Source of the DNA: Rapana venosa
Taxonomy: Eukaryota; Mollusca; Gastropoda; Neogastropoda; Muricidae
DNA length: 64,000 bases
Assembly: GCA_028751875.1 (NCBI GenBank)
Contig: CM054167.1
Span: 21,489,056 to 21,553,055, forward strand
Direction of reading: 5' to 3'
Made by a program: the position numbers and the translations under genes. Each line of letters starts with the position of its first letter. Positions within the stretch are counted from its first letter, which is position 1. A model generated the notes under the pieces. That model did no database searches. It worked only from the letters and a program-made list of their open reading frames with translations, and had not been told where the DNA came from. Below are positions 801 through 57,898 of this stretch, one piece after another.

Positions 801-1265
801 TGTTGCTTGTACATTCCCCAAGCTTTACAGCAGCCCAGAATATGCACTCTGTCTCACTCATCATCCCACCTGGGAATCACCGTGAAAATGTAAACTCACA
901 CAAGTACACACTGGGATGAGAAGTTTACACATGTCTGTTTTCAAGTAAAAGGTAAAGGAGTCCCATAACCTATAAGGTCGTAGGGGAGCGAGGCGTTAGA
1001 GACCTCACTTCTCTAGGGCCAGCATATTGAGGGCGGCGCCCATCTCCTCTCCCTCGCTGTTTTCAACTACATCACCATTAAAGCAAGATCTACACTCCCG
1101 ACTTCAGAGGATTTTTTTTTTCCTTTGAAGGAGAGTGCAGGTTGTCATGCTAAGACTGAGAGAGAGAGCTTTGCCATGGTTGAAGACTCAATCTCAGCGT
1201 AGGATTTGAAAGCGTGTCAACATTTTAACGTAGGCCTTGGTGCGTTGTTTACATAACCGACAAAA
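785..1265 (+). repeat. Unclassified dispersed repeat Y (with SINE insertion)
   Basis: Shared with 60375-60720: (TTG)n, ACATTCCCCAAGCTTTACA, ACCTGGGAATCACCGTGAA, GATGAGAAGTTTACAC, ACTTCAGAGGATTTT, GGAGAGTGCAGG and ACGTAGGCCTTGG. The 951-1062 SINE interrupts it. Confidence 0.65.
951..1062 (-). mobile_element. tRNA/5S chimeric SINE 3' fragment
   Basis: It matches the last about 110 bp of the family (AGTCCCATAACCTATAAGGT to CTCTCCCTCGCTG). It is inserted in the repeat unit shared with 60375-60720, which is uninterrupted there. Confidence 0.82.
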
Positions 1266-3497: not shown

Positions 3498-3632
3498 ACG
3501 AAACCCAGCGGATGATAACGATAGACTACACACACAGAGCCATACATCTCAAACTCGAACCAACAAAACCCAGCAGATGCCAACGATAGACCCACACACA
3601 CAGAGAGCCGTACATCTCAAACCCCGACGGGG
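3498..3632 (-). repeat. 68-bp tandem duplication covering the CRD gene stop codon
   Basis: AACCCAGCGGATGATAACGA to CATACATCTCAAACTCGAAC (3500-3560), and AACCCAGCAGATGCCAACGA to CGTACATCTCAAACCCCGAC (3567-3628). The second unit contains the stop codon. Confidence 0.85.
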
Positions 3633-3943
3633 GGCATGGCGCAGGGCACGGTGGTATTGTCCTCCTGCAGGTAGTTGGAGGTGTGAGATGGGTAGCGGTG
3701 GCAGTGCAGCTTGGCGGGCCAAGGGAGGCCACCCCAGCTGTCGTGGAACTGGCGCCGGCAGTCATGCTTGACCTGCTGGCAGACCTCCCGGCAGGGCACC
3801 ACGTAGGCCTGGTCGCGAAGGGGCCCGTGGATGCAGAAGGGCATGAAGGCGCCGCAGAGCAGGAAAGGGAGGCGGCCCGAACAGCCCGATTCCACCATGG
3901 CCGAGTACTGCTGCATTTCCAGGGTGATCTCGTCCAGGTCGGA
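3617..3943 (-). CDS. Exon 3 of tandem-CRD protein: rest of second Frizzled CRD and stop
   Basis: Acceptor GTGCAG|TCCGAC precedes 3943 and the stop TGA is at 3619-3617, giving 108 codons plus stop. The reading includes MVESGCSGRLPFLLCGAFMP, then FC, VVPCREVCQQVKHDC, LPWPAKLHC and TVPCAMP. With exon 2 this supplies all ten CRD cysteines in the canonical order and spacing, plus the conserved LPWP/LxC block. The protein ends nine residues after the tenth cysteine, so it has no seven-helix region and is probably secreted. The stop-codon region (RC of TACATCTCAAAC) is repeated 68 bp further downstream. Confidence 0.9.
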   Translation of the reverse strand, partial: SDLDEITLEMQQYSAMVESGCSGRLPFLLCGAFMPFCIHGPLRDQAYVVPCREVCQQVKHDCRRQFHDSWGGLPWPAKLHCHRYPSHTSNYLQEDNTTVPCAMPPVGV

Positions 3944-3954
3944 CTGCACACATA

Positions 3955-3986
<32 letters not shown>

Positions 3987-4084
3987 CACACACACAGGCA
4001 GCGCAAGTCGTGTGGAGCTGGGGTTTGAGTGTAGCCGTTTGTGAGGATGGAGAAACACGTGTTATTATAATTTAAGACAAGTTT

Positions 4085-4315
4085 CCCTGAAGTCAGAATG
4101 CAGCTCTACCTTGATAATGGTAAGTTGTTTTTTTTTAACAAAACCGCATACACACGGGGACTGGATGTAAAAAAGCACATGAGTGCTTATTCCATTATCC
4201 TCGATATAAAAGAATAAATAAATAAATAAATAAAGGGGGAATAAAATGATCACACACGCAAAAATCTTGCCTTTGGTGAACCTCAGAGCTCTAGCCGAGG
4301 AACAGAGAGAAAATA
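4085..4315 (+). mobile_element. Hairpin-type SINE tail interrupted by an AATAAA-type SINE tail
   Basis: GAAGTCAGAATGCAGCTC (4090) begins the hairpin tail; an AATAAA-type tail (4136-4240, ending (AATAAATA)n) is inserted; the hairpin tail resumes with TTTGGTGAACCTCAGAGCTC and GAGGAAC at 4305. Confidence 0.75.
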
Positions 4316-8600: not shown

Positions 8601-9382
8601 GTTGGTTGAGGCACTGAGATGAATGAATGAATATATCCATGGGTGTTTACAATTGTTATGTTTTTATTTGTAAATAATGCCACATCTTTATCTGAGCTTT
8701 TAAATCAGTTGGGTGACAGTCCTGATGTAGTTTCCATAAGTCTATACTACTATCTATAAATGACTTTGGCTTTGATAATCGGTAATCATGGTCAAGTTTC
8801 TCTGAGCTATTCTGATAAAACCTGTCTACTCTTAGCCTTCTCGGTGTCTTTTCTCTATATTTTTTCTGCTCTTTTTTCCTTCCTCCTTTTTTGGGGGTCT
8901 TGTTTTTTGGTTGCAAATCAATGTTGACAGGCCAGTTAAATCATATTAAAGACTACATTCAAAGAACTGTTCAAATACTTCCTCCTGCTTTTGTCGAGTC
9001 TGCAGTGGCTTAGTCTTGACTGTTGTGGCAGACACAGACGCAGACAGCAGCAAAGAAATTTGGGTGGACAAAGGAACGGTAGAGGAAAAAAAGCAAGACC
9101 AGGAAACGAAAATGGGGTCTGCTAAGATCGGTTCAGTTTGCGCTTTCACTTTCTGAACACAGTCAGGATTTTCTCTGATGACGTGTTCAGACTTGAAGGA
9201 AACATTCATTATACTAGGTCGTTAACAAAATCGACTTGAAAACAAGTCTTTGTTGTCACAGGGGTGAAGTAAAGTTATGTAGCCTTACAGAGCTTTACAC
9301 GCACTTACATGCACACACACAAAGACACACTTATATGGTGACAGAGACACACACACACATCCACACACACACATTATGTGCA

Positions 9383-9430
9383 CACACACATACAACAGAA
9401 ACACACACACACACGTGCACACACACATAC
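9383..9430. repeat. 5' copy of LINE target-site duplication in (AC)n
   Basis: The segment ACACATACAACAGAAACACA followed by (AC)n and CGTGCACAC is present here and again at 12291-12335, exactly flanking the LINE. The non-microsatellite part makes chance unlikely. Confidence 0.85.
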
Positions 9431-12290
9431 GTGTCTTGAAGGCTTGTCACTTAAGTGTAAGAAATATAGAACAGAAGAGGAAAGTAAAACAGATTATGCC
9501 GACCCAATCTCTGACAACAGTTCATACATTAATGCTCCAATTTCAGTGGATGAAGTTAGAGATGCTTTATTGTCTCTCTCTAACAAAAAAACATCTGTCG
9601 GATTAGATGCAGTTTCTAATGATATGTTAAAACATCTACCAGCAAACTTCATTTTTCTACTTCATAAACTGTTCAATAAATGTTGGATTGAAGGTGTTAT
9701 GCCAGTAAGTTGGAAACAGTCCATTGTTGTTCCAATTCATAAACAGGGAAAGCCCACAACAGACAAATCTAGCTACAGACCAATTGCTTTGACCTCACAT
9801 ACATGCAAGTTGATGGAGAGAATTATTATTAAAAGGCTTATGTACTTCTGTGATAAAAATAAAATAATCCCAGTCAATCAAGCGGGTTTTCAAAAAGATA
9901 GATCTGCCATAGATAACTTGGTTAAGCTATCAACGCATATAAAAATTCAGTTTGCAAGAAGAAAAAACGTTCTTGCAACATTTTTTGATATAAAAAAGGC
10001 ATATGATCAAGTTTGGCATGTTAAGTTGCTACATAAACTTAAGAATCTGGGTTTTTCTGGGTATATATATCATTATATTAAAGGTTTTTTGACTAACAGA
10101 AGTATACAGGTTAGAGTAGCTAAATCATATTCAAGTTTTAGATCTCTTCATATGGGACTACCTCAAGGTTCTGTAATATCGCCTCTCTTATTTAATGTTT
10201 TGCTGCACGATCTCCCTATGAAATTGTCAAAGGAAGTCGTCTTAGTGCAATATGCAGATGATATATGCATGTGGATGAATGTTTCTATGAAACGAAACAC
10301 ACCAAAAAGATCGTTAAACTACATTAAAAAGGTATACCAGAACCAACTTAACAACATCAATAAATATATGCTCGAAAATGGATTTACTTTATCCACAGAA
10401 AAAACATACTCTGTGCTTTTTAACAATAGCAGTAATCCAGATGAGCTACCAGCATTTAGAATTGGGACCGACCTGATTGAGTATAAAGATACTGTAAAGT
10501 TCTTGGGTGTCATTCTCACTTCTAAGCTAACTTGGAATGCACATATTGAACACAATTTAACTAAAGCAAAGAAAGGCTTAAACTTTCTGAAGATGGTAAG
10601 TAAACAGTTCTGGGGCCAAGACACATTAAATCTGAAATATTTAGCTACTTCTCTTATTCGTTCAAAATTATCGTATGGCCAAGAGGTATTTTTCAGTGCT
10701 CCTAAGTATTTACTTAAAAAGTTACAAAGTATAGACTGCAAAGCATACAGGCTTGCTCTTGGTGTGCCTTATCACGCCTCAGCCCTGGGAACATATAACG
10801 AAGTCGGCATTTTGCCTTTAGATGATTACCGTGAACTAGCATGTGCTAAATATGTGCTTAAGAACAAAACAACTGAAAACTTTATTTCGGAAGAAATAGA
10901 ATTACAATCAGAATTAGATTTTCCTAAAAGAGCAAAATATATTTCCTCTCTAATGCCCATAAGTACATATGTGTCTGATCTGGTACAAAACTCTGAAGTT
11001 AATCAACACAGCATGGACACACGAGAAACAATCTTACCTTGCCCATCATGGGAGATGAATAAAGCACACTTTGACATAGAGGTGTCTAATGTAAATAAGA
11101 ATGACAATTTGAATATAATGGTTTCTGCTGTCCGATCCCACATTCATCATAAGTATTTTGACCATTTACAAATTTATACAGACGGATCACGTTTAGATAA
11201 TCAAGAAACAGGTTCTGCTTTTGTTATACCAGCGTTGAAAATTGAAAAATCATACTATGTTGGTAAATATCACTCGATATTTACAGCAGAACTAATAGCA
11301 ATATTAATGGGTCTTACTTATATTCTTGATTTGCCATTGTATATATTCCAAATCCTTCTTTGCGTTGATTCTAAGTCGGTATTGTATGCACTAAAATCCC
11401 CATGTTATAAGAAAATTTCGAAAATAATATTAGAAATTAAGCATATCATCCATCTCTTAACATTAAAGGGCATAAGTGTGAATTTTTGTTGGGTGCCTTC
11501 ACACACTGGATTCTTTCCAAATGAGTGGGCAGATAGAGCTGCAAAAAAAGGTGCAAAACATGGAAGGGATGCAATAGAATTGCATGTACCTTTATCCTTA
11601 AAAGAGGGGTACAGCTTACTAGAACAAAAATCATGGAGAAAGATCACCGAAACTAATCAGCAAAATGAGAGATTTTTAACTAGAACTGCAATTAATACCG
11701 ATAATTTAACAGTCGTGAACCATTCAAAAGCTTGTGTAAATGTTTTTATGTCAAGAAGAATTACTGCTTTATTTTATAGATTGAAACTAAATGCATTGAT
11801 AACCAAATTCAGCAAAAATGGTAAATGTCTATGTGGTGAGAATATCACCAATACTCATATACTTTTTGATTGCCAGAGTGTAAAACCTTTCATGCCCCAT
11901 TTTTCTGAAAATTCCCTTACCAGCATATTCAATAATTTAAAACTGGCATTTGAAATTGTGAAAGGACTATACCGCAGTCCCTTAGGACATTTGTTATAGT
12001 TGCATTAACGTTAATGACTTGTTCTTATGTTGTTGGTTTTTTTTATAATTCCTGTTGCATTGCCAAGTTTCTTTATATGATTTTTTGTAAAAGCATGGGT
12101 TTTGGGGGGTTTTGGTTGTATTTTTGGTTGTTTTTTTATTTTTTATTTATTTTAATTTTATTTATTTATTTTATTTTTTTATTTTATTTTTTTATTATTA
12201 TTTTTTTAAACAAGACATCTACCCCTCCATTTGTACCCCCTCGTCTAATATCACTAGAAGTGAACAGACGTAAAATTGAAGTCAACAACA
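9431..12290 (+). mobile_element. RT/RNase H non-LTR retrotransposon (I-group, Nimb-like), copy 1, 5'-truncated
   Basis: The element is 2.86 kb and carries a long open RT plus RNase H frame, a 290-bp T-rich 3' UTR and a (CAA)n end. It is flanked by an about 45-bp duplication containing ACACATACAACAGAAACACA (9387 and 12293), a target-site duplication that includes part of an (AC)n microsatellite. No endonuclease or ORF1 precedes the RT, so it is 5' truncated. Having RNase H after RT in a single ORF places it in the I group of LINEs. It lies in the first coding intron of the CRD gene, on the opposite strand. Confidence 0.92.
9432..11999 (+). CDS. Reverse transcriptase-RNase H polyprotein fragment of the LINE
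   Basis: About 855 codons are open without a stop. RT motifs in order: TFFDIKKAYDQVW (motif A aspartate), GLPQGSVISPLLFNVLLHDL (motif B), VQYADDICMW (catalytic YADD). RNase H motifs follow: IYTDGSRL (first Asp), FTAELIAI (Glu), CVDSKSVLYAL (second Asp), WVPSHTGFFPNEWADRAA (His and final Asp). A Cys-rich C-terminus (CLCGENITNTHILFDC) follows, as in related LINEs. The apparent codons before 9432 are microsatellite read-through, not element sequence. An intact frame and a near-identical second copy suggest recent activity of the family. Confidence 0.93.
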   Translation, partial: CLEGLSLKCKKYRTEEESKTDYADPISDNSSYINAPISVDEVRDALLSLSNKKTSVGLDAVSNDMLKHLPANFIFLLHKLFNKCWIEGVMPVSWKQSIVVPIHKQGKPTTDKSSYRPIALTSHTCKLMERIIIKRLMYFCDKNKIIPVNQAGFQKDRSAIDNLVKLSTHIKIQFARRKNVLATFFDIKKAYDQVWHVKLLHKLKNLGFSGYIYHYIKGFLTNRSIQVRVAKSYSSFRSLHMGLPQGSVISPLLFNVLLHDLPMKLSKEVVLVQYADDICMWMNVSMKRNTPKRSLNYIKKVYQNQLNNINKYMLENGFTLSTEKTYSVLFNNSSNPDELPAFRIGTDLIEYKDTVKFLGVILTSKLTWNAHIEHNLTKAKKGLNFLKMVSKQFWGQDTLNLKYLATSLIRSKLSYGQEVFFSAPKYLLKKLQSIDCKAYRLALGVPYHASALGTYNEVGILPLDDYRELACAKYVLKNKTTENFISEEIELQSELDFPKRAKYISSLMPISTYVSDLVQNSEVNQHSMDTRETILPCPSWEMNKAHFDIEVSNVNKNDNLNIMVSAVRSHIHHKYFDHLQIYTDGSRLDNQETGSAFVIPALKIEKSYYVGKYHSIFTAELIAILMGLTYILDLPLYIFQILLCVDSKSVLYALKSPCYKKISKIILEIKHIIHLLTLKGISVNFCWVPSHTGFFPNEWADRAAKKGAKHGRDAIELHVPLSLKEGYSLLEQKSWRKITETNQQNERFLTRTAINTDNLTVVNHSKACVNVFMSRRITALFYRLKLNALITKFSKNGKCLCGENITNTHILFDCQSVKPFMPHFSENSLTSIFNNLKLAFEIVKGLYRSPLGHLL

Positions 12291-23164: not shown

Positions 23165-23316
23165 TGGGGACGGGATAGCTCAGTGGTGGGAACACTCGCT
23201 TTCCTCCAGCCAAGTTAAGAAGCGTTGAGCGTGGTTACCAGTTTGGATGGGTGACCATTTGCGTGCCTTGGCTTCAGTACAGTTCCCCAGTTCACCCAGC
23301 TGTAAATGGGTAAAGG
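23165..23316 (+). mobile_element. tRNA/5S chimeric SINE, left half (broken by a second copy)
   Basis: It starts GGGACGGGATAGCTCAGTGG, which contains a consensus RNA polymerase III A box (TAGCTCAGTGG). Then AAGTTAAGAAGCGTTGAGCG and TGGATGGGTGACC (23211-23266) align with the 3' half of 5S rRNA (AAGCUAAGCAGGGUCGGGCC and UGGAUGGGAGACC). It breaks at about 23310, where a second copy is inserted, and resumes at 23603. Confidence 0.85.
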
Positions 23317-23602
23317 GTAAAGGAGTCCCATAACCTATAAGGTCGTAGGGGAGCGAGGCGTCAGAGACCTCACTTCTCTAGGGCCAGCATATTGAGGGCG
23401 GCGCCCATCTCCTCTCCCTCGCTGCTTTACCTTCCCTGACCCTAAAGAGGGCAGGTACCCATTTACAGCTGGGTGAACTGGGGGAACTGTACTGAAGCCA
23501 AGGCGCGCAATCGGTCACCCATCCAACTGGTAACCACGCTTGACGCTGCTTAACTTGGCTGGGGAAAGCGAGTGCTCCAACCACTGAGCTATCCCGTCCC
23601 CT
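23317..23602 (-). mobile_element. tRNA/5S chimeric SINE, full-length inverted copy inserted in another copy
   Basis: This is a complete about 286-bp copy on the minus strand. Head (reverse complement of GAGCTATCCCGTCCCC) at 23602 and 3' end (ACCTTATAGGTTATGGGAC in minus sense) at about 23317. Insertion in the opposite orientation creates a long inverted repeat. Confidence 0.88.
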
Positions 23603-23760
23603 GGATATGGGTACCTGCCTCTTTAGGGTCCGGGAAGGTCAAACAGCGAGGGAGAGGAGATGGGCGCCGCCATCAATATGCTGGCCCCTTGAGAAGTGAG
23701 GTCTCTGAGGCCTCGCTCCCCTATGACCACATAGGTTATGGGACACCTTTACTGTACCTT
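23603..23760 (+). mobile_element. tRNA/5S chimeric SINE, right half of the interrupted copy
   Basis: It continues the copy begun at 23165, from GGGTACCTGCCTCTTTAGGG to TTATGGGACACC, then returns to L2-like LINE sequence. Confidence 0.85.
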
Positions 23761-24417
23761 TACTCAAAACCAGCTACAAATCATTTAGTCAGTGATTTTG
23801 TTGTTGCTATCCAGTTGCTGTTCTATGGAACTCTCTCCCACCTATTCAGAGTCTCCATGCTTTCCAAACTAATCTTAAAACTTCCTTGTGACAGCTAAGC
23901 TGTGATTCTACCATACGATCTTTAAACTACACTGCACTGGGTTGTCCGTGTATGCATGTTTGTGCATGAACAACCACTAGTGCATTCTGCTTAACAATAA
24001 ATGTATAAATTTGTAAAGTTGCATTCTTTCTTTGTGCGCGTGTTCATGGATAACAACATGCTTGAAACCTATCCACTGGAGTATTGCCTTCTTCAAGAAA
24101 AGATTGATTAAGTAGTACTGTTATCATACCCACACACATATCCCTGCAGTCAGAATGCATGTACATCAGTGGTGGGCAAACGGTCGCATACGCAAAGTCT
24201 CACTTTTGATGAACCTGGGAGTTGTTGTGGAGGAAGAGAAAACCCCGTCAAAATACACATGGCGTAACTCAAGTGCTTTCATTTCCACTGTTACGGACCA
24301 TGGGCTTTGTTGGAAGAGGGTTTCAGTTTTGTTGTGCTTCCTGTATGTGTGTGGAAGATTCAGTGTCGTGATCTTGAATTGATGATGGCAGTTTGATGAT
24401 TCCAATTAGCGGAACAG

Positions 24418-24481
<64 letters not shown>

Positions 24482-24594
24482 AGATCAGAGAGTGTGTGTG
24501 TGTGTGTATGTGTGTGATCAGTGTGTGTGTGTATGTGTGTGTGTGTGTGTGTGTGATCACAGTGTGTGTGTTCTTTTTATTCTTTCGTTTATTC

Positions 24595-24934
24595 TTTATT
24601 CTTTTATACCGAGGATAATGGAATAAACACTAATGTGCTTTTTTACATCCAGTCCATGTGTGTATGTGGTTTTGTAAATTCTGTCATCTGTTCCCACCGG
24701 CACACAATGGCCTACTCTTTCGAAAAGTGGAACAGGATTTAGTGTCGCAAGATGTTCTGCATGCGTTTGCACATGGGCCCTCGGTTTATAGTCTCATCTG
24801 AAGGACTTTTGGGGAGAGTGGGTGGAGTCTGCACTGATGTTAAGTCCAGGGGAAATTATCCCCTTGAACGGCAATCGAACCTGGGTCGTCAGATTGCGAG
24901 CGCAATGTTCTAACCACTAGGCTATCCCGTCTCC

Positions 24935-24935
<1 letters not shown>
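24595..24935 (-). mobile_element. tRNA-derived SINE type 2 with AATAAA-type tail
   Basis: In minus sense it runs GGGAGACGGGATAGCCTAGT head at 24935, GATTGCCGTTCAAGGGG, the central block with TATAAACCGAGGGCC, AAGCACATTAGTG, ATTATCCTCGGTATAAAAG and an (AATAA)n end. This is a complete copy of the second tail version. Confidence 0.82.
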
Positions 24936-24974
<39 letters not shown>

Positions 24975-25051
24975 GTAAAAATGTGATGTGCCTGCCTTTT
25001 AGTTTTTTTTTGTACTGTAAATTATATACAATGTTAGTATGTGTGTGTGTG

Positions 25052-25367: not shown

Positions 25368-25754
25368 CTCCATCTCTTCCTCAGCTTCATCAGGGTAAAG
25401 TGTTTTAAAGGTACTTACTGTTTTGAATTCATACTGGAGTGCTTCCAAGCTTTTCTTCATCTTTTCAGGAAGTGTGCGTTGTGTGTGTGTGTGTGTGTGT
25501 GTGTGTTTGAGAGGGGTGTGTTTGTGTTTGAGAGGGTGTGTTTGTGTATGTGTGTGTGTGTGTGTTTGAGAGGGGTGTATGTATGTGTGTGTGCGCATGT
25601 GCAAGTGTGCGTGTTTGTGTGTGTGTTTGAGAGGGTGTGTGTGAGTGAGTTACATGTGTGTTTGTGTGTTTGTTTGAGAGAGGTGTGTGAGTGTGCATGT
25701 GTATTTGAGGTAGGTGTGTTTGAGAAGTGTGTTTTTTATTTAATTTACTTTATT

Positions 25755-26075
25755 ATTTTATATCGAGGATAATGGAATAAGTACTTATGTGCTTTTTTTA
25801 CATCCAGTCCCCGTCTGTGTGTGGTTTTGTAAATTCTGTCATCTGTTCCCACTGGTAAAAATGGCCCACTCTTATGAAATGCGGAACAGGATTTACTGTG
25901 TGCGCAAGATGTTCTCTGTGTGTTTGCACATGGGGCCTCGGTTTATAGTCTCATCCAAAGGGGAGTCTGCACTGAAGTTAACTCCAGGGAAAAATATCCC
26001 CTTGAACGGGAATCGAACCCGGGTCGTCAGATTGCCAGCGCAATGTTCTAACCACTAGGCTATCCCATCTCCTGT
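25755..26075 (-). mobile_element. tRNA-derived SINE type 2 with AATAAA-type tail
   Basis: Similar to the copy at 24595-24935; head at 26072 (GGGATAGCCTAGTGGTTAGA in minus sense), with a well-preserved GGGTTCGATTCCCGTTCAAG box-B region and tail ATTATCCTCGATATAAAAT. Confidence 0.85.
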
Positions 26076-26438
26076 GTGTGTGTGTGTGCGCGTGCATGTG
26101 TTTTTAAGAGGTGTGTTTGTCTGAGGTGTTACGTGTGTGTGTGTGTGTGCGTGTGCGTGTGTGTGTGTGTGTGTGCATATGTGTGTGTGTGTGCACGTGT
26201 GTGTGTGTATGTATGTTGTGTGTGTGTGTGTGAAAGTGATTATGAGTACAATGCTCTAACTGCCAGACTAGTCAGTCTGCCCCAAGGGCAAACTGAAAAC
26301 TGACCCCCCCCCAAAAAAAAAAAATAAGAGGAAAAAAGTGTGGGATGATTGCTATACCTGCAGGCAACCACTCCATGATTTGCCCCTCAGTGGAGAAGAG
26401 GCTGTGGAATGTTGTCATTTAAAAAAACAACACCTCTC

Positions 26439-28157: not shown

Positions 28158-28418
28158 ACTAATGACAGGTAAAGGTAAAAGGTAAAGGTGTCCCATAACC
28201 TATAAGGTCGTAGGGGAGCGAGGCGTCAGAGACCTCACTTCTCTAGGGCCAGCATATTGAGGGCGGCGCCCATCTCCTCTCCCTCGCTGCTTTACCTTCC
28301 CTGACCCTAAAGAGGACAGGTACCCATTTACAGCTGGGTGAACTGGGAGAACTGTACTGAAGCCAAGGCGCGCAAACGTCACCCATCCAACTGGTAACCA
28401 TGCTCGACTAATGACAGG
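28158..28418 (-). mobile_element. tRNA/5S chimeric SINE with perfect 12-bp target duplication
   Basis: ACTAATGACAGG occurs at 28158-28169 and 28407-28418, precisely flanking a minus-strand copy that lacks the tRNA head (5' truncated inside the 5S-like part). The duplication shows retroposition by target-primed reverse transcription. Confidence 0.9.
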
Positions 28419-28429
28419 GGCTGTAAAAA

Positions 28430-28716
28430 AGGTGTCCCATAACTTATGTGGTCATAGGGGAGCGAGGTGTCAGAGACCTCAGCTTCTCTAGGGGCTACCA
28501 TATTGAGGGCGGTGCCCATCTCCTCTCCCTCACTCCTTTACCTTCCCTGACCCTAAAGAGGCAGGTACCTATTTACAGCTGGGTGAACTGGGGGAACTGT
28601 ACTGAAGCCAAAGCGTGCAAACGGTCACCCATCCAAACTGGTAAACCACGCTTGTCACTGCTTAACCTTAGCTGGGGGAAAGTGAGTGCTCTGACCACTG
28701 AGCTATCCTGACCCCA
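28430..28716 (-). mobile_element. tRNA/5S chimeric SINE, near full length
   Basis: A second minus-strand copy begins only 12 bp after the previous one. It carries 3' end, body, 5S-like part and head, with about 10% visible divergence from the other copies (for example ACTTATGTGGTCATAGG). Confidence 0.85.
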
Positions 28717-41581: not shown

Positions 41582-41893
41582 AGTTAAGGTTAAAAGAAAA
41601 AAGGTAAAGGTGTCCCATAACCTGTCATAGAGGAGCGAGGCCTTAGAGACCTCACTTCTCTAGGGGCCAGCATATTGAGGGCGGCGCCCATCTCCTCTCC
41701 CTCGCTGCTTTACCTTCCCTGACCCTAAAGAGGCATGCACCCATTTACAGATGGGTGAACTGGGGGACTGTACTGAAGCCAATGCGCGCAAACGGTCACC
41801 CATTCAACTGGTAACCATGCTCGATGCTGCTTAACCTTGGCTGAGGGAAAGAGAGTGCTCTGACCACTGAGCTATCCCGTCCCCAGTTAAGGT
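41582..41893 (-). mobile_element. tRNA/5S chimeric SINE with 9-bp target duplication
   Basis: AGTTAAGGT at 41582-41590 and 41885-41893 flank a full-length minus-strand copy with the (AAAAGGTAAAGG)-type 3' tail. Confidence 0.88.
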
Positions 41894-44706: not shown

Positions 44707-45977
44707 TTGTTGTTGTTGACTTCAATTTTACGTCTGTTCACTTCTAGTGATATTAGACGAGGGGGTACAAATGGAGGGGTAGATGTCTTGTAAAAAAAAA
44801 AAAAATATATAAAAAACAAAAACAAAAAAACAAAAACAAAAAAAAAACAACCAAAAATACAACCAAAACCCCCCAAAACCCATGCTTTTACAAAAAATCA
44901 TATAAAGAAACTTGGCATTGCAATAGGAATTATAAAAAAAACCCATAAGAACAAGTCATTAACGTTAATGCAACTATAACAAATGTCCTAAGGGACTGCG
45001 GTAAAGACCTTTCACAATTTCAAATGCCAGTTTTAAATTATTGAATATGCTGGTAAGGGAATTTTCAGAAAAATGGGGCATGAAAGGTTTTACACTCTGG
45101 CAATCAAAAATTATATGAGTATTGGTGATATTCTCACCACATAGACATTTACCATTTTTGCTGAATTTGGTTATCAATGCATTTAGTTTCATTCTATAAA
45201 ATAAAGCAGTAATTCTTCTTGACATAAAAACATTTACACAAGCTTTTGAATGGTTCACGACTGTTAAATTATCGGTATTAATTGCAGTTCTAGTTAAAAA
45301 TCTCTCATTTTGCTGATTAGTTTCGGTGATCTTTCTCCATGATTTTTGTTCTAGTAAGCTGTACCCCTCTTTTAAGGATAAAGGTACATGCAATTCTATT
45401 GCATCCCTTCCATGTTTTGCACCTTTTTTTGCAGCTCTATCTGCCCACTCATTTGGAAAGAATCCAGTGTGTGAAGGCACCCAACAAAAATTCACACTTA
45501 TGTCCTTTAATGTTAAGAGATGGATGATATGCTTAATTTCTAATATAATTTTCGAAGTTTTCTTATAACATGGGGATTTTAAAGCATACAATACCAACTT
45601 CGAATCAACGCAAAGAAGGATTTGGAATATATACAATGGCAAATCAAGAATATAAGTAAGACCCATTAATATTGCTATTAGTTCTGCTGTAAATATCGAG
45701 TGATATTTACCAACATAGTATGATTTTTCAATTTTCAACGCTGGTATAACAAAAGCAGAACCTGTTTCTTGATTATCTAAACGTGATCCGTCTGTATAAA
45801 TTTGTAAATGGTCAAAATACTTATGATGAATGTGGGATCGGACATCAGAAACCATTATATTCAAATTGTCATTCTTATTTACATTAGATACCTCTATGTC
45901 AAAGTGTGCTTTATTCATCTCCCATGATGGGCAAGGTAAGATTGTTTCTCGTGTGTCCATGCTGTGTTGATTAACTT
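44707..45977 (-). mobile_element. RT/RNase H LINE copy 2 (inverted, strongly 5'-truncated)
   Basis: On the minus strand this matches copy 1 from about 10999 to 12290: RNase H domain, Cys-rich C-terminus, 3' UTR and (CAA)n end. Only a handful of residue differences are visible (for example K/L, I/T, G/D, L/M substitutions), so nucleotide identity is probably about 98%. Like copy 1, its flanks are GT/AC repeats on both sides (44696-44706 and 45978-46018). It lies in the intron between F-BAR exons b and c. Confidence 0.92.
44974..45977 (-). CDS. RNase H and C-terminal part of the LINE polyprotein (truncated)
   Basis: The frame is open from the truncation point to the same stop as copy 1. It keeps IYTDGSRL, FTAELIAI, CVDSK and WVPSHTGFF, i.e. 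all the RNase H catalytic positions, but has no RT. The upstream methionine and residues read in frame before 45977 come from flanking GT-repeat sequence, so this is not a functional start. Confidence 0.85.
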
Positions 45978-46063
45978 GTGTGTGTGTGTGAGTGTATATG
46001 TGCGCGTGTGTGTGTGTGTTTTCATGAGCTGACAGTGATTCATGTATTCTGTACATGTTGCAG

Positions 46064-46126
46064 CATTTACAAGAGGGGGCCAAGCTGCAGGAACAGTTGA
46101 GGCAAAGCGCTCAGGCTTTAGATAGA
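46064..46126 (+). CDS. F-BAR exon c (63 bp)
   Basis: Acceptor TTGCAG|CATTTA and donor GATAGA|GTGAGT. Its 21 codons read HLQEGAKLQEQLRQSAQALD plus R, aligning with the (N)FHDGRKAQQHIExxWKQLExSK segment of the family. Both borders are phase 0. It lies just 86 bp from the truncated 5' end of LINE copy 2 at 44707-45977. Confidence 0.88.
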
Positions 46127-57400: not shown

Positions 57401-57898
57401 CAATAAGTGTACATGGCACGTTGTTGTGACTGCACTAATCTGATGACAAGCGCTTCGATTTGTTTTACAAGATTCAGCGCTATATAAATACCATACATAA
57501 TTATTATTATTATTATTGTTATTATTATTATTATGACCATTCTCCAAGGTAAGGTTGAGGGGCAGAAAGAAAAGAGGGAGACCACTTAACACCCTACATT
57601 GCCAATCATCATTGAGATCAGTGGTCTGGGAGGAGGGCCACTATGGGAGATCGTAGAACTCAGCAGAGACAGAGAAAAGTTGGCAAACGCTGGTGGCATT
57701 ACGTGGTTTTCTTACCATCGATGGAAATAGGTGACTAGGTAAAGGTGTCGTCATCACCCCTATCCTTACCCTAGCTACTTCCCCCTCCCCTTCCCCCCCC
57801 CCCCCCCCCCCCCCACCACCTTCCCGTTTTGTTTTGTTGGTTTAAAAAAAATTTTTTTTCTCTCCAACTGACATGGAATCTGGCTGTGCGTTCTTCAG
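57115..57898. other. Intron stretch before F-BAR exon g
   Basis: Poly-C (57116-57138), (GC)n at 57179-57190, two L2-type tails, and poly-C (57796-57814); no coding signal until the acceptor at 57898. Confidence 0.6.

Follow-up and report, generated by a model that had tools for sequence, protein, structure and literature searches.

The ways in which short interspersed nuclear elements (SINEs) acquire new RNA polymerase III (pol III) heads are usually deduced from families that are already complete, and a locus in the gastropod Rapana venosa raises the question of whether such a head can be assembled from half a transfer RNA (tRNA) and the internal control region of 5S ribosomal RNA (rRNA). 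The locus is region 23165-23760 of a 64,000-nucleotide stretch (assembly GCA_028751875.1, contig CM054167.1, positions 21,489,056 to 21,553,055 of the forward strand; hereafter the window, to which all positions refer), described in a first-pass annotation, made from the sequence alone, as one SINE with a tRNA-like A box joined to a 5S-like segment. We observed a composite structure of the head, copies on many contigs, signatures of retroposition and 5S copies that are often fused to the 5' ends of SINEs. With a probability of about 0.74, we read the element as a high-copy SINE whose composite pol III head combines a 5' half from a tRNA or tRNA-type SINE with 5S bases 44 to about 93, and which would have arisen by template switching, be transcribed by pol III and be inserted by a long interspersed nuclear element (LINE).

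A dispersed SINE with a composite head

The region contains two copies of one SINE of ~290 base pairs (bp), in opposite orientations and one inside the other. The annotation was thus right in calling a SINE and wrong in calling a single element, since a host copy on the plus strand is interrupted by a complete copy on the minus strand (Table 1). The long inverted repeats I1 and I3 are these two nested SINEs, and a foldback element was rejected. TAGCTCAGTGG, the 5S-like A-box segment and GGATGGGTGACC all lay where they had been annotated. BLAST of the unit against the window retrieved six copies, A (host), B (nested), C, D, E and F, with 77-95% pairwise identity, in keeping with the "six or more" first counted; the head is present in four of them (A, B, D, E), while C and F are 5'-truncated. 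The order is composite head, body and a (CCTTTA)n-type tail, and the body has a 38-bp motif (29/38) in common with another tRNA SINE of the same genome. Target duplications are exact in three of the six copies (C 11 bp, E 9 bp, F 10 bp) and imperfect in two (B 12 bp; D 7 exact or about 10 imperfect bp, by eye), and copy A has no clear one. From the two clear duplications originally claimed, that of 9 bp (E) stands as exact, whereas that of 12 bp (B) carries two mismatches; those of C and F are additional. The element is therefore short, dispersed and multicopy, with target duplications and 5' truncation, as SINEs are.

The stronger match in the head is to 5S. As reference we used the commonest sequence among eight 5S matches fetched from the genome (own 5S), with box A at positions 50-64, the intermediate element (IE) at 67-72 and box C at 80-97, as in PMC6204057 (this and all other papers are cited for the portions of them covered, to which statements about them extend). 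The annotation had proposed alignment to the species' own 5S rRNA and tRNAs as a check, with similarity no closer than that of shuffled sequence as the adverse outcome. Consensus bases 42-91 align without gaps to own 5S bases 44-93, with 42 of 50 identical, and the score of 34 was reached by none of 2,000 dinucleotide shuffles (mean 8.2, maximum 17). Box A agrees at 15/15 positions, the IE at 4/6 and box C at 16/18, and the control region characteristic of SINE3 elements is thus present, including the box C that had been noted. The outcome was the same with the Rfam consensus 5S and with Xenopus and Drosophila 5S sequences (0/1,000 shuffles each). The similarity is confined to this segment: consensus bases 1-41 have none (1,847/2,000 shuffles as good), so that the 5S-derived 5' end of a SINE3 is missing, and neither do bases 98-285 (129/500 shuffles as good). 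Furthermore, with the 5S offset by two bases from its native position 45 of 56 bases agree, as against at most 19 of 56 for 14 other offsets (-6 to +8).

Automated scans are less informative here. At gathering thresholds Rfam had no match in the whole window, and a scan restricted to the region (E up to 10) called neither 5S nor tRNA. The isolated 5S part scored 12.6 bits (E 1.3) against Rfam 5S, and a slightly different stretch of copy B gave a gap-free alignment over 50-106. ARAGORN found no tRNA in the window. A control also failed, in that Rfam likewise did not call as tRNA the head of an ordinary tRNA-type SINE at 24840-24945, and hence its silence on such heads means little. Four sub-threshold Rfam matches in the region (two human long non-coding RNA families; best E 0.016, 20.1 bits vs. 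a gathering score of 37) were taken as chance. An ordinary tRNA SINE whose 5S-like part arose by chance or convergence would accommodate both the gathering-level scan and the tRNA half with its A box, but a plain tRNA SINE is refuted by a gap-free match that no shuffle equals, in a single fitting register and with a complete box A. We consider this explanation extremely improbable and reject chance similarity to 5S; on these comparisons, the 5S part of the head is genuine 5S.

The first bases resemble a tRNA. Positions 1-37 of the Rfam tRNA model align to bases 4-41 of copy B with one inserted base (truncated match, 14.1 bits at E 0.48 vs. a gathering score of 29). The consensus A box has no mismatch to the A-box pattern, whereas even the best B-box-like sites deviate from the B-box pattern at 2 of 7 informative positions. 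The A plus B box pair of a SINE2 is hence missing, as is any B-box site with 0-1 mismatches, which bears out the annotation on the presence of the one box and the absence of the other. Against own tRNAs (14 fetched from a list of 51 tRNA matches, giving 10 distinct sequences of two kinds), the best score of the first 45 bases was equalled by 4/500 shuffles, which is weaker than for 5S but above chance. A consensus of 14 tRNA-type SINE heads from the window agrees with 22 of the first 28 bases of the chimeric SINE (1/2,000 shuffles), so the 5' part is as possibly derived from a tRNA-type SINE as from a tRNA. The observation made in the first pass is, at the level of sequence, confirmed, and its interpretation as a hybrid head is supported.

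An ordinary 5S-headed SINE of the SINE3 type could still be imagined, the first 43 bases of which drifted or were replaced, with a coincidental tRNA A box. A head that matches best in its 5S control region and only modestly in its tRNA part would suit it, as would the greater divergence of published 5S SINEs upstream of the promoter motifs (PMC10886601). A perfect A box, an alignment to model positions 1-37 with a single inserted base, and first bases that exceed nearly all shuffles in both tRNA comparisons speak against it. We rejected a plain 5S SINE on the A box and the tRNA-like first bases, and regard the drifted version as unlikely.

The 14 aligned heads come from a second, more divergent tRNA-type SINE family in the window (24700-24937 (-), 26072 (-), 34877 (-), 33195 (+) and others), several copies of which have A and B boxes and whose body holds GATGAGACTATAAACCGAGG. 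Positions 24529-24976 and 25683-26114 are tandem duplicates, spaced at a period of roughly 1,138-1,157 bases, with one tRNA-SINE copy per unit.

The spread of the chimeric SINE was sampled in 20 hand-placed 10-kb pieces on 20 contigs (139,664 of 200,000 bases readable), in which BLAST found eight fragments. Four of these bear the head, one of them (locus L028) strongly decayed, and all four span both the tRNA and the 5S parts, as do all four head-bearing copies in the window; conversely, a search of the pieces with own 5S gave two matches (E up to 0.05), and both belong to heads of the chimeric SINE. Extrapolation from the eight fragments in these hand-placed pieces, with unreadable bases treated as readable, gives ~130,000 fragments genome-wide (95% interval 56,000-257,000). 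A DNA search of the genome with the head consensus returned 0 matches, which we do not read as absence, as very common words were skipped and the window itself belongs to the genome. Target duplications, 5' truncations and wide spread agree with the retroposition originally proposed, and by these marks the element is a retroposed, widely dispersed SINE family.

5S-SINE fusions elsewhere in the genome

Among the best candidates scored in the 2.28-gigabase assembly were 47 Rfam 5S matches, and flanks were read for 44 of them. In 23/44 (loci among L003, L006, L043-L062 and L067-L082) the 5S is fused to a SINE 5' end, and with about half of the 5S matches read being SINE fusions, naive counts of 5S genes would be inflated. 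Classification by script gave 17/44 in which a 5S with its trailer leads, in sense orientation, into the first bases of another tRNA SINE (GGAGGCACCGTGGTCGAGTGG...), 6/44 in which a 5S is joined to the chimeric SINE and 6/44 in which it is joined to a third repeat (7 with L078, missed by the pattern); the remaining 15/44 (14 without L078) are apparent 5S genes or other sequence. The junction strings vary, with 13 distinct ones among the 17 tRNA-SINE fusions and 6 among the 6 chimeric-SINE fusions, and a few fusions lack the first 5S bases (e.g., L061, L070, L074). The trailers ATCTTTT, ATTCCTTTTT and GCTTT also occur at apparently plain 5S genes (L082, L007 and L001, respectively), and all three GCTTT-trailer fusions (L049, L058, L074) in addition share the 5S variant of the GCTTT-trailer genes. 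Over the stretch read, five chimeric-SINE fusions out of six have a SINE part that is 96.5-97.6% identical to the consensus, which marks these five as young; the SINE part of L057 is decayed. Exact duplications surround the whole 5S-SINE unit at L003 (13 bp) and L006 (10 bp). The differing junctions point to recurrent template switching, as far as sequence can tell, and the genome appears to hold the finished hybrid together with many young 5S-SINE fusions with differing joins, making the steps directly comparable.

The third repeat (...CCTGGGCTTTATCACAGTTCTTGATTAAACCATTGACGCTGGGGGCAACAGC...) is joined to 5S 3' ends at L059, L060, L072, L073, L076, L078 and L079. At L077 the 5S is joined to an apparent 5'-truncated tRNA-SINE body (by eye), and at L080 to another tRNA-like sequence.

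Proposed origin and promoter function

The tRNA half would extend from its start to about the anticodon-loop position, including the A box, and be followed directly by the 5S half with box A, IE and box C. We infer that such a head arose through template switching of a reverse transcriptase among SINE RNA, 5S RNA and a tRNA-type 5' end. The likeliest process behind the fusions is LINE-driven reverse transcription jumping from the 5' end of a SINE RNA to a 5S precursor RNA; with the 5S terminator between their parts, the resulting 5S-SINE dimers would in many cases be dead ends. To make the hybrid head, reverse transcription would have to enter 5S at about base 93-97, leave it at about base 44 and continue into a tRNA-type 5' half. 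Double template jumps during LINE reverse transcription have been published (PMC2104539), and tRNA halves as well as 5S pieces truncated at position 46 recur in LINE-1 chimeras (PMC13174262).

Alternatively, the head may stem from DNA recombination or from insertion of one SINE into another. Nested insertions do occur in the window (A/B, C/D), DNA recombination has been named as one route to SINE chimeras (PMC7245038), and three chimeric-SINE fusions tested have no target duplications. However, the head junction leaves the 5S no more than two bases out of register, many of the 5S matches read are SINE fusions that vary in their junctions and 5S trailers, and one fusion has its exact 13-bp duplication around the whole unit. 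We deem this route improbable, if less so than a drifted 5S head.

With regard to function, transcription by pol III would start at the first bases of the element (GGGGACGGGATAGC) and proceed via the 5S-type control region, with TFIIIA and then TFIIIC and TFIIIB, possibly helped by the tRNA A box, and insertion would be carried out by a LINE recognizing the SINE tail. The 5S part is two bases off its native distance and the tRNA part starts at base 4, so that a single start site could serve both promoter types, and this common start may matter for function. We tentatively suggest, at somewhat less than even odds, that the SINE has a hybrid pol III promoter, in which a type 2 part (tRNA A box) and a type 1 part (5S control region) stand in register with one start site, and that the LINE machinery of the lineage continues to join 5S precursor RNA to SINE RNAs and so makes candidate new heads. 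Whether pol III promoter parts of the tRNA type and of the 5S type can use a common start site is a question for which the hybrid head is a natural test case.

Several points weigh against the template-switched, pol III-transcribed composite. Transcription of the chimeric SINE by pol III is what we infer from its sequence, and among the window copies the promoter parts are no more conserved than the body (11/163 substitutions in the tRNA part and 12/242 in the 5S part vs. 28/758), which is expected for dead insertions but lends no support. The tRNA comparison covered two kinds of tRNA. No partner LINE emerged from a comparison of the tail within the window (short exact motifs, BLAST), where tail motifs outside the SINE copies come down to a single 9-base motif at 57738. 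A 5S-headed parent with the body of the chimeric SINE was not seen, although no pattern search for such a parent or for the junction was completed. In 12/2,000 random flank pairs a repeat of 10 bp or more stands at the corresponding position, which makes the duplication at L006 fair rather than strong evidence, and the three fusions of 5S with an intact chimeric SINE for which both flanks were read (L049, L055, L061) have no target duplication at the right place, L049 having only a 9-bp repeat of tail-like sequence. Finally, human 5S pieces commonly extend from the 5S start as far as a breakpoint at 46 or 90, most of them in antisense orientation (PMC13174262), which limits the parallel with the chimeric head to the breakpoint.

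Published chimeras and other features of the window

Chimeric 5S-tRNA SINEs as such are already known. AmnSINE1 and the DeuSINE superfamily are, in the accounts covered, a chimera of 5S rRNA with a tRNA-derived SINE. In these the 5S forms the 5' head. 7SL/tRNA chimeric SINEs (Tu, GarnAlu) are fused SINEs that are not known to have a split head, and they have 7SL instead of 5S. They resemble the present element in having two pol III RNA sources per SINE (PMC7245038). HaSE3 of Helicoverpa armigera, thought to have arisen by a template switch from a tRNA-derived SINE RNA to 5S rRNA (PMC3272025), likewise has a 5S-derived promoter with boxes A, IE and C; its 5' region, as described there, is 5S-like, with no mention of a preceding tRNA piece, and its body and tail are those of a tRNA SINE, whereas here a tRNA half with an A box precedes the 5S region. 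The same 5S boxes occur in SINE3 elements, including PxSE4 and PxSE5 of a moth, for which the portion covered describes a 5S-like 5' region only and mentions no preceding tRNA A box (PMC8010984). Ajax elements of nemerteans also keep only the promoter part of 5S with boxes A, IE and C, but they are long terminal repeat (LTR) retrotransposons, and no tRNA half is reported in the text covered (PMC10886601). Human 5S/LINE-1 and tRNA-half/LINE-1 chimeras are retro-chimeras with partial 5S or half a tRNA, yet they are described as separate insertions, with 5S and tRNA mostly antisense, and not as an amplified family with a hybrid promoter (PMC13174262).

A head divided between half a tRNA and the control region of 5S was not found in the covered portions of the literature, which deal with SINEs headed by 5S, with chimeras joining 5S to tRNA-derived SINEs and with fusions of 7SL and tRNA (PMC3272025, PMC8010984, PMC7245038, PMC10886601, PMC5063351, PMC6337102, PMC10294476, the pol III review PMC10498592, and PMC11121367). 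The rarity first ascribed to the chimeric head must accordingly be qualified, AmnSINE1 and HaSE3 being published 5S-tRNA chimeras; the split head is undescribed in these portions, and we provisionally regard it as new. Surveys that demand a head recognized by a tRNA scan, such as the bivalve curation in PMC10294476, could miss such families.

Table 1 Positions of the chimeric SINE copies, their parts and target duplications in the window.
Feature	Positions	Strand	Remarks
Copy A (host SINE), head and linker	23166..23312	+	A box 23176-23186; 5S-like segment about 23212-23256, own-5S BLAST 80% over 45 bp
Copy A, body and tail past nested insertion	23614..23763 (end approximate)	+	
Copy B, complete SINE nested in copy A	23313..23601	-	
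Copy B, tRNA-like 5' half	23561..23598	-	Positions 1-37 of tRNA model RF00005; truncated, sub-gathering match of 14.1 bits
Copy B, A box TAGCTCAGTGG	23581..23591	-	Consensus 0 mismatches to A-box pattern; copy B letters identical
Copy B, 5S internal-control-region-like segment	23512..23561	-	Own 5S bases 44-93, 41/50
Copy B target duplication, left	23301..23312	.	10/12 bp identical to 23602-23613
Copy B target duplication, right	23602..23613	.	12 bp with 2 mismatches vs. left
Copy C, 5'-truncated within 5S-like part	28169..28406	-	Exact 11-bp duplication 28158-28168 and 28407-28417
Copy D with head	28422..28715 (3' end approximate)	-	Tail holds inserted copy C
Copy E with head	41591..41884	-	Exact 9-bp duplication 41582-41590 and 41885-41893
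Copy F, 3' part only	945..1056	-	Exact 10-bp duplication 935-944 and 1057-1066

Pattern scans of viral contigs and of contigs from prokaryote genomes gave 0 matches. The RNA of the head folds mildly better than shuffles (z -1.88, 9/200 as good), on which we base no structural claim. LINE copies lie at 9342-11999 (+) and, second and shorter, at 44974-46110 (-, by eye), and are candidate partners of the SINE at most; relatives of the LINE open frame among the matches listed mostly carry PF00078 and PF00075. An open frame at 3617-4105 (-) contains a cysteine-rich stretch that may resemble a Frizzled-type domain.
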